DNA from: Burkholderiales bacterium
GTDB lineage: Bacteria; Pseudomonadota; Gammaproteobacteria; Burkholderiales; Burkholderiaceae
Assembly (NCBI GenBank): GCA_026225455.1
Contig: JAMFSV010000025.1
Coordinates: forward strand, 1 to 32,762
Reading direction: 5' to 3'
DNA length: 32,762 nt
Part shown: positions 17,175-20,074 of the stretch, piece after piece
Numbering within the stretch: the first letter of the stretch is position 1
Layout: every line of letters begins with the position of its first letter
Program-made: the position numbers and the translations under genes
The notes under the pieces: model-generated
Databases searched by the model: none
Seen by the model: the letters and a program-made list of their open reading frames with translations, nothing else
What the model was told of the DNA's origin: nothing

Positions 17175-18641
17175 ATGAATATTATCGAACCGGGTATCCG
17201 CAATCTGGCAACCGCCAAAGAGCTCCTGCTAACGCCTTATGGACTGGACGAGGCAATACTGACGCGTGTACTCGCCGATATATTTACCCATCGGGTCGAC
17301 TACGCCGATCTGTATTTCCAGACCACCCGCAGCGAGGCCTGGAGCCTGGAAGAAGGCATCGTCAAATCGGGCAGCTTCAGTATCGACCAAGGTGTCGGCG
17401 TGCGCGCCATCGCCGGCGATCGGACCGCCTTTGCTTATTCGGACGATCTTTCGGCAGAAGCCATCCAGCAGGCAGCCGCCGCGACCCGCGCGATTGCCAA
17501 AGCCGGCGGCGGGCGGCAACGGATCAAGGTGGCCAGCTCCCTGAAAGGCTCATTCGGGCGCGATCTTTATCTGCCATCCGACCCCTTGCAATCGCTGGAC
17601 GCCACGGCCAAGGTGAAACTGCTGGAGCGCATCGAAAAGATGGCGCGCAGCCGCGACCCCCGCATCACACAAGTGATGGCAGGCCTGGCCGGCGACTATG
17701 ACGTGGTACTGGTGGCACGCAGCGACGGCGTGCTGGCGGCCGATATCCGGCCGCTGGTGCGGGTTTCCGTGACGGTGATTGCGGAACAAAACGGCCGCCG
17801 CGAAATCGGCAGCGCCGGCGGCGGCGGTCGCTACGACTACAACTATTTCACCGACGCGCGCTTGTCGTCGTTTGTCGACGAAGCGGTGCGTTCAGCCTTG
17901 GTCAATCTCGACGCACGCCCGGCACCGGCCGGCGCGATGACGGTGGTACTCGGACCGGGCTGGCCCGGGATCCTGCTGCACGAAGCCATCGGCCACGGCC
18001 TGGAAGGCGATTTCAACCGCAAAGGTTCGTCCGCGTTTGCCGGGCAAATCGGCGAGCGGGTGGCCGCCAAAGGCGTCACCGTGGTCGACGACGGCACGCT
18101 GCCGAATCGGCGCGGCTCGCTCAATATCGACGACGAGGGCAATCCCACGCAGTGCACCACCTTGATCGAGGACGGCATCCTGAAGGGTTATATCCAGGAC
18201 ACGCTCAACGCGCGCCTGATGAAAATGCCGGTTACCGGCAATGCGCGCCGCGAATCCTACGCCGCCCTGCCGATGCCGCGCATGACCAACACCTATATGC
18301 TGAACGGCGAGCGCGACCCGCAAGAAATTATCGAGTCGGTCAAACACGGTTTATATGCGGTTAATTTCGGTGGCGGCCAGGTCGACATCACCAACGGCAA
18401 ATTTGTGTTCTCGGCTTCCGAGGCTTATATGATCGAAGACGGCAAGATCACCTACCCGGTGAAAGGCGCCACTTTGATCGGCAGCGGCCCGGAATCGCTG
18501 AAAGACGTCAGCATGATCGGCAACGATATGGCGCTGGACACCGGTATCGGCGTTTGCGGCAAAGAGGGCCAGAGTGTGCCGGTAGGCGTAGGCCAACCGA
18601 CTTTGCGCATCGACCGGATGACGGTAGGCGGAACCGCTTAA
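17175..18641 (+). CDS. tldD: Metalloprotease TldD
   Basis: [85 protein letters not shown] (HExxxH); 488 aa. Confidence 0.96.
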
Positions 18642-18726: not shown

Positions 18727-18755
18727 TTGTCAGCTTCGCTGGCACGCGTTATAAA
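18727..18755 (+). promoter_or_regulatory. Sigma70-like promoter for the aroG leader: TTGTCA-N17-TATAAA
   Basis: -35 TTGTCA at 18727-18732, 17-nt spacer, -10 TATAAA at 18750-18755; predicted start near 18762. Confidence 0.7.
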
Positions 18756-18789
18756 GCAATACTGAATTCATAGCCCGGATCGCCTTGCC

Positions 18790-18861
18790 ATGTTTGCCTC
18801 CTCCTTCTGGTTTTATTTTTATAGCTATCTCGAACCGCTGGCGGAAGGAGAGGATCGGTAA
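18790..18861 (+). CDS. Aromatic leader peptide (candidate attenuator peptide of aroG)
   Basis: ATG TTT GCC TCC TCC TTC TGG TTT TAT TTT TAT AGC TAT CTC GAA CCG CTG GCG GAA GGA GAG GAT CGG TAA = MFASSFWFYFYSYLEPLAEGEDR*; codons 6-13 are F W F Y F Y S Y. Below the ORF track size cutoff. SD sequence is weak. Confidence 0.75.
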   Translation: MFASSFWFYFYSYLEPLAEGEDR

Positions 18862-18879
18862 CGGTCCTAAAAAGATCCC

Positions 18880-18911
18880 AAAAAACCGCCAGCCACCCTG
18901 GCGGTTTTTTT
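18880..18911 (+). terminator. Intrinsic terminator (attenuator stem) upstream of aroG
   Basis: AAAAAA CCGCCAG-CCACC-CTGGCGG TTTTTTT: arms 18886-18892 and 18898-18904, T-run 18905-18911. Confidence 0.85.
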
Positions 18912-19000: not shown

Positions 19001-20074
19001 ATGCCACCGCATAACACCGACGACGTTCGCATCCGTGAATTAAAAGAACTCGTTCCGCCCGCGCACCTGATCCGCGAATTCCCTTGCGAAGAAGACGTGT
19101 CCGAATTGATCTACTCTTCACGCCGGGCCATGCACCGTATTTTGCACGGCATGGACGATCGTTTGATCGTGATCATCGGGCCGTGCTCGATCCACGATCC
19201 GCAAGCCGCGCTGGAATATGCCGCCAAATTGGTGGAGCAGCGCAAGCACTTTGCCGGCGAGCTGGAAGTGGTGATGCGGGTGTACTTTGAAAAACCGCGC
19301 ACCACGGTAGGCTGGAAGGGCTTGATCAACGATCCGCATATGGACAACAGCTTCAAGATCAACGACGGCCTGCGCATGGCGCGCGAGCTGCTGTTCAAGA
19401 TCAACACGCTGGGCTTGCCGGCCGGCACCGAATACCTGGACGTGATCAGCCCGCAATATATCGCCGACCTGGTGTCATGGGGTGCCATCGGCGCACGCAC
19501 CACGGAGTCGCAGGTGCACCGCGAATTGGCTTCAGGACTGTCCTGTCCGATCGGCTTCAAAAACGGTACCGACGGTAATGTGAAAATTGCCGTCGATGCG
19601 ATCAAAGCCGCATCGCAGCCCCACCATTTCCTGTCGGTGACGAAAGGCGGACACTCGGCCATCGTCTCGACCTCGGGCAATGAGGACTGCCATATTATTT
19701 TGCGCGGCGGGAAACAGCCCAACTATGATGCGGCCAGTGTCGACGCGGCTTGCGCCGACATCAGCCGCGCCGGTCTTGCGGCCCGGCTGATGATCGATGC
19801 CAGTCATGCCAACAGCCAGAAGAACCCGGAAAACCAGATCCCGGTCTGTGCCGATATCGCGCGCCAGATTGCGGCAGGCGACGAACGCATTATCGGCGCC
19901 ATGGTCGAATCGCATCTGGTGGCGGGCCGCCAGGACCTGGTGCCCGGCGAACCGCTGGTCTACGGTCAAAGCATTACGGACGGCTGCATTTCATGGGATG
20001 CCAGCCTGGGCGTGCTGGAAACCTTGGCCGCGGCAGTCAAGCAACGCCGCCTGGCACGCGGCAGCGGTAATTAA
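19001..20074 (+). CDS. aroG: 3-deoxy-7-phosphoheptulonate (DAHP) synthase, class I
   Basis: LIVIIGPCSIHDPQAALEYA, MRVYFEKPRTTVGWKGLINDPHMDNSFKINDGLRMARELL, GARTTESQVHRELASGLSCPIGFKNGTDG, MIDASHANSQKNP. RBS-like TTTGGAGCTTTAA before the ATG. Isozyme letter is not certain. Confidence 0.95.
   Translation: MPPHNTDDVRIRELKELVPPAHLIREFPCEEDVSELIYSSRRAMHRILHGMDDRLIVIIGPCSIHDPQAALEYAAKLVEQRKHFAGELEVVMRVYFEKPRTTVGWKGLINDPHMDNSFKINDGLRMARELLFKINTLGLPAGTEYLDVISPQYIADLVSWGAIGARTTESQVHRELASGLSCPIGFKNGTDGNVKIAVDAIKAASQPHHFLSVTKGGHSAIVSTSGNEDCHIILRGGKQPNYDAASVDAACADISRAGLAARLMIDASHANSQKNPENQIPVCADIARQIAAGDERIIGAMVESHLVAGRQDLVPGEPLVYGQSITDGCISWDASLGVLETLAAAVKQRRLARGSGN

Follow-up and report, generated by a model that had tools for sequence, protein, structure and literature searches.

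What controls aroG, the first gene of the phenylalanine, tyrosine, and tryptophan pathway, in a bacterium of the order Burkholderiales? The window analyzed here, a stretch of 32,762 nucleotides from a draft genome (71% complete, 381 contigs), carries a short ORF and an intrinsic terminator between tldD and aroG (Table 1). A first-pass annotation had read this interval as an attenuator in which a ribosome on Phe, Trp, and Tyr codons selects between mutually exclusive antiterminator (2:3) and terminator (3:4) helices. Interpretation of the aroG leader as a ribosome-mediated attenuator is strongly supported by the analyses described below, and aroG very likely responds through it to the supply of charged tRNAs, those for Phe and Tyr and probably the one for Trp.

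Anatomy of the aroG leader

The AroG protein matched NCBIfam NF006723 with 584 bits (cut-off 568), and its closest named relatives in the collection scanned were those of Trinickia, Paraburkholderia, and Caballeronia (85–87% identity). The leader ORF contains codons for amino acids made by the pathway to which aroG belongs, and the intrinsic terminator between ORF and gene consists of a 13-bp stem and a U tract. Antiterminator and terminator share a strand, because CTGGCGG occurs both inside the ORF (18838-18844) and in the terminator 3′ arm (18898-18904), and CCGCCAG (18886-18892) can pair with either copy; together with G18837:C18893 the 2:3 helix has eight perfect pairs. All positions and pairings listed in the first-pass annotation are present in the sequence. 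A covariance-model search found a single copy of the switch in the source genome. Owing to its symmetry, the terminator (18880-18910) also scores as one when the minus strand is read.

Table 1. Features of the aroG leader region, in window coordinates.
Feature	Position	Strand	Remarks
Likely sigma-70 promoter	18727-18755	+	TTGTCA (18727-18732), 17-nt spacer, TATAAA (18750-18755)
Leader ORF MFASSFWFYFYSYLEPLAEGEDR	18790-18861	+	23 codons; stop 18859-18861; homologous aromatic leaders precede aroG elsewhere
Segment 1 of the first-pass annotation CTCCTTCTG	18801-18809	+	can pair with 18842-18850; not conserved
Sensor codons F W F Y F Y (S) Y	18805-18828	+	from leader ORF translation and footprint model
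Local (1:2-like) hairpin, apparently conserved	18828-18851	+	-7.4 kcal/mol; UCUC (18828-18831) with GAGA (18848-18851), CCG (18835-18837) with CGG (18842-18844)
Segment 2 GCUGGCGG	18837-18844	+	antiterminator 5′ strand, within leader ORF
Antiterminator-loop hairpin AGGAUCGGUAACGGUCCU	18851-18868	+	-9.5 kcal/mol (folding)
Segment 3, terminator 5′ arm AAAAAACCGCCAG	18880-18892	+	segment 3 overall 18880-18893
Antiterminator 3′ strand CCGCCAGC	18886-18893	+	part of segment 3
Segment 4, terminator 3′ arm CTGGCGGTTTTTT	18898-18910	+	into U tract, to 18911
aroG, 3-deoxy-7-phosphoheptulonate (DAHP) synthase	19001-20074	+	NCBIfam NF006723 AroG; proposed regulated gene

The promoter candidate was found by eye (score 10/12) and predicts a transcription start near 18762, which would give a 28-nt 5′ UTR. 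A locus of the same genus (L083) has identical hexamers at the same spacing, many other loci share a TTGTCA-17-TATAAA-like site, and the promoter score in related loci was 7.7 vs. 4.4 for shuffled sequences. A stricter promoter scan of this region of the window found nothing, since it accepts only T as the final base of the -10 hexamer and TATAAA ends in A.

Conservation of the competing helices

When the sequence upstream of the terminator was shuffled and searched for a perfect partner of at least 8 bp for the terminator 5′ arm, such a partner arose in about 0.3% of the trials. Perfect upstream partners of this length were found for 62% of the aroG-leader terminators vs. 6% of other terminators, the former figure being inflated by preselection of that group for GGCGG upstream. 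The 154-nt leader as a whole gave a folding z of -2.5. The rarity of a chance partner bears on a rival explanation, namely that the hairpin is the plain terminator of tldD (17175-18641), with the short ORF and the duplicated arm being incidental. The arrangement would allow this, as tldD is on the same strand and its stop codon lies 240–270 nt before the terminator; the low chance frequency, the promoter-like site between tldD and the leader, and the joint occurrence of the three elements (aromatic ORF, segment 2, terminator) ahead of aroG in many families make it extremely improbable.

The attenuator reading predicts two alternative helices, and both are conserved with compensatory changes. 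In an alignment of 35 leaders, the 2:3 helix was paired in 93.8% of the cells (at most 49% when slid) and the 3:4 helix in 97.1%, with four pairs of the latter changed on both sides; many of the conserved pairs are invariant, and related sequences are not independent counts. The 35-row alignment alone contained no two-sided compensatory change in 2:3, and support of this kind came from a wider set of leaders. There the variable positions covary: among leaders whose segments 3 and 4 are CCGCCGG and CCGGCGG, respectively, four loci (L138, L140, L161, L163) have CCGGCGG as segment 2, and Burkholderia has the G-U-tolerant CTGGCGG. In L100, segment 2 has AA for GC with TT opposite, a change that serves the 2:3 helix only because the altered positions sit in the terminator loop. 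Native combinations of segments 2 and 3 also outperformed swapped partners, in a duplex swap (z = -3.1) as well as in a second test (z = -3.6; 1 of 5000 permutations).

A local hairpin around segment 2

The third pairing of the first-pass annotation fared differently. The proposed protector stem between CTCCTTCTG and CGGAAGGAG (18842-18850) does exist as 9 bp including one G-U, but it is no better conserved than slid controls (51.9% of cells paired across the 35 leaders vs. 39.5–57.3%), and in L083 CACGTTCTG replaces CTCCTTCTG and breaks the stem. On these grounds it was rejected as a general protector. The proposed closure of the antiterminator loop by GGATC (18852-18856) and GATCC (18874-18878) likewise has both of its strands in place, and in folding it is outcompeted by the hairpin at 18851-18868.

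With moderate confidence, the local hairpin at 18828-18851 appears to be conserved instead of the 1:2 stem. It was paired in 92.6% of the cells (slid controls at most 64.5%), with two-sided changes at two pairs, and distant relatives have other sequences here that still pair, such as UUCUUUCUGCC/GGCGGAAGGAA in L106. In a chimera test with fixed geometry, native halves folded better than swapped ones (z = -2.5; 47–59 of 5000 permutations). When the flanks of segment 2 were subjected to a duplex swap test, no signal emerged (z = +1.2), because one flank is rich in pyrimidines and the other in purines and the two anneal whatever the register. Likewise, z-scores of the local hairpin from mononucleotide shuffling were uninformative (median z about 0).

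Conservation of the RNA rather than the peptide

The segment 2 site lies within the leader ORF in 102 of 102 leaders, distributed over the three reading frames as 86, 10, and 6, and it is therefore the RNA rather than the peptide that is conserved; this applies to the conservation downstream of the aromatic run in general. Even where the peptide is kept, its Leu is always encoded by CTC (45/45) and the following Glu by GAG (45/45), counts that come from related and hence not independent sequences, compared to 24% CTC among Leu and 42% GAG among Glu codons in the aroG genes. These CTC and GAG codons make the base of the local hairpin. Four leaders (L017, L020, L022, L024) are frameshifted near the F/W codons and retain the RNA segments that follow. 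For some of them the frameshift may be a sequencing error, as it falls within or close to a T run in L020 and L024.

The same data bear on an additional role of the leader peptide or the terminated RNA in trans, for which the trp leader of Sinorhizobium meliloti is a reported precedent (PMC7298713). A short stable RNA and a peptide would indeed arise in rich conditions, but the peptide end is not conserved as a protein, being read in three frames and frameshifted in the four leaders mentioned, and such a role is very unlikely.

Ribosome position and the state of the switch

The effect of a translating ribosome was modeled by equilibrium folding with a 30-nt footprint masked; as the footprint size was assumed, the results are those of a model and not measurements. 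For an RNA ending before segment 4 and free of ribosomes, the probability of 2:3 was 0.97 for this leader and on average 0.53 in 101 leaders, whereas in the complete leader RNA 3:4 reached 99.7%. Placing the A-site at codons 1–12 of the present leader left 2:3 free and placing it at codons 13–23 blocked it, with a value of 0.61 at the stop codon. The earlier caveat that a ribosome on the last Tyr codon (18826-18828) might cover part of segment 2 was well founded, as P(2:3) was 0.01 with codon 13 in the A-site.

Averaged over the 101 leaders, P(2:3) was about 0.8–0.9 for A-sites three to eight codons short of the last aromatic codon. It was 0.67 one codon before that codon, 0.45 at it, 0.18 one codon past it, and at most 0.05 at 2–10 codons past; at the stop codon the block was incomplete (mean 0.31). 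Only in L075 and L107 did no aromatic stall exceed 0.5. The aromatic codons therefore occupy the stretch where stalling favors antitermination, and the change from on to off in the model falls at the last aromatic codon. In silico and with the assumed footprint, stalling frees the antiterminator and completion of the ORF blocks it; the step that clearly decides in the model is the ribosome covering segment 2, and the translating ribosome would probably be the main blocker of antitermination.

At equilibrium, masking of segment 1 is not needed to free segment 2, contrary to what the first-pass annotation had assumed, since 2:3 already wins before segment 4 is made and with no ribosome present. 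For the same reason, kinetics rather than equilibrium folding would have to account for the off state when the leader is not translated. An attenuator exactly as first drawn, in which segment 1 is the protector and stalled ribosomes mask it, is unlikely. Its stem occurs in the minimum-energy fold of the full-length leader (75%) and could act in this species, but its population falls to 2% in an RNA that has segment 3 and still lacks segment 4, and in the model a ribosome initiating on the leader is enough to mask segment 1, leaving the local hairpin to form in its place; the lack of conservation and the broken stem in L083 argue in the same direction.

Control of the same terminator by a small-molecule riboswitch or a bound protein, with a secondary role of the ORF, has next to no probability. 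Some RNA features beyond the ORF are conserved, as such a device would have it, but what is conserved comes down to the aromatic codons and the switching strands, the sensor codons lie exactly where stalling flips the model, and no Rfam family was found at threshold anywhere in the window.

For the ribosome-mediated attenuator, anatomy, conservation of 2:3 and 3:4, and sensor codon position relative to the switch were established in silico; we infer that the promoter is used and that the polymerase pauses and terminates, as well as how strongly and in which direction aroG responds and which of the amino acids counts most. Transcription would start at the predicted site, and a ribosome would enter the 23-codon leader. 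The small hairpin at 18828-18851 would probably pause RNA polymerase and hide segment 2 before and after passage of the ribosome. With aromatic tRNAs in short supply, the ribosome would stall in the F-W-F-Y-F-Y codons (18805-18822), leaving segment 2 (18837-18844) free to pair with segment 3 (18886-18893), and the polymerase would read into aroG. With ample aromatic tRNAs, the ribosome would move over the coding segment 2 and prevent 2:3, so that 3:4 would form and the RNA would end near 18911.

Distribution

Among 110 aroG loci retrieved by AroG protein similarity alone, all but three (L099, L102, L111) have an aromatic leader ORF and a terminator before aroG, and the same switch looks to be present before aroG across much of the Burkholderiales, as judged from these sequences. 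The leader is decayed in L099 (1.2-Mb genome) and absent from L102 (1.9 Mb) and L111 (2.3 Mb), as if the switch had been lost in genome reduction. Two divergent loci from the window's family (L108, L110; genomes of about 2 Mb) have CCGCTAA/TTAGCGG terminators and the leaders MNVMRHTRAYFFWYFTRTSG and MQHAQSFYFWHFTRTGGGSVR.

The covariance model matched 90 of 250 genomes of the order at E ≤ 0.01. Many weak matches were terminator-only or located away from aroG, and the strong full-length ones that were examined were all upstream of aroG. Weak matches (terminator-only or of about 27–37 bits) mostly did not lie upstream of aroG and were treated as chance.

A sample of 274 genomes from across the class contained six with a match at 1e-5, and three of these do not belong to the Burkholderiales. 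Among 27 aroG loci from other gammaproteobacteria, taken outside family f63, none had the leader–terminator pair. The loci of f63 (L189 in genome G444; L190 and L193 in G292) were the only non-Burkholderiales aroG loci found with the leader. Their peptide end PKPLAEEGLRSP resembles that of the Burkholderiales family f4, suggesting that aroG was transferred along with its leader.

In most leaders of five families a -10-like TAnnnT ends 6–8 nt before the leader ATG (f13: L106, L139, L152, L153, L160; f23: L136, L150, L164; f43: L124, L130, L157; f49: L159, L173; f4: L116, L125). This spacing suggests that the leader mRNAs of these families are leaderless; in the Burkholderiaceae, including the present locus, the promoter lies further upstream instead.

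Comparison with known attenuators

In kind the aroG switch is classical and works like known switches. The trpL, pheL, and hisL leaders of E. coli also combine an ORF rich in codons for the pathway amino acid, and a terminator and antiterminator with a shared strand, and they too are followed by a gene for biosynthesis. Segment 2 of trpL lies past the stop codon. Unlike these three leaders, the aroG switch would sense three aromatic amino acids and control DAHP synthase, and it has segment 2 wholly within the ORF. The Rfam 15 leader families (Trp, His, Leu, Thr, and others) had no match at gathering score in the window.

Other attenuators have been linked to DAHP synthase genes. In Corynebacterium glutamicum, according to the passages on aroR-aroF in PMC11802643 (citing Neshat et al., 2014) and PMC4046766 (prediction), a Phe-Tyr-Phe leader peptide precedes the gene, and Phe limitation raises expression while Tyr has no effect; this system belongs to an actinobacterium, has another sequence, and contains a single FYF motif. 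Acholeplasma uORFC-13-1 before aroF, known from 24 examples, was predicted as a uORF that contains Phe codons and is accompanied by a terminator, but differs in phylum, sequence, and structure (PMC8632094). Two candidate uORFs of shikimate genes with Phe and Tyr codons were predicted in five other genomes (PMC6429828, Fig. 6b), and the likeness rests on their description there. For the aroF leaders of E. coli and Shewanella, which have another 5′ UTR, attenuation was hypothesized by Camakaris et al. (1980), on evidence that is indirect in the passages citing it (PMC2659441, PMC8632094). A search of the open-access literature, with subscription papers outside its scope, found no description of a Burkholderiales aroG leader. 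Vitreschak and colleagues reportedly surveyed proteobacterial attenuators in 2004 (FEMS). Two papers on Burkholderia sRNAs have no mention of aroG in the main text (PMC5688073, PMC4035088).

We tentatively propose, as a serious possibility, that this is an order-wide and so far undescribed aromatic attenuator with fewer parts than trpL, in which one switch would read three amino acids at the entry of the pathway, and whose leader ORF would be leaderless in several families. As segment 2 is coding, the translating ribosome itself would replace the protector stem.

If this holds, an RNA switch that is absent from Rfam and missed by annotation pipelines would control the step that sets the flux through aromatic amino acid synthesis in the Burkholderiales, which include Burkholderia, Ralstonia, and Cupriavidus. 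It would account for the control of aroG in lineages outside the TyrR and TrpR regulons, which were reconstructed only in gammaproteobacterial groups (PMC5343134). The order would also offer more than 100 natural variants of one attenuator, from which its essential parts could be found.
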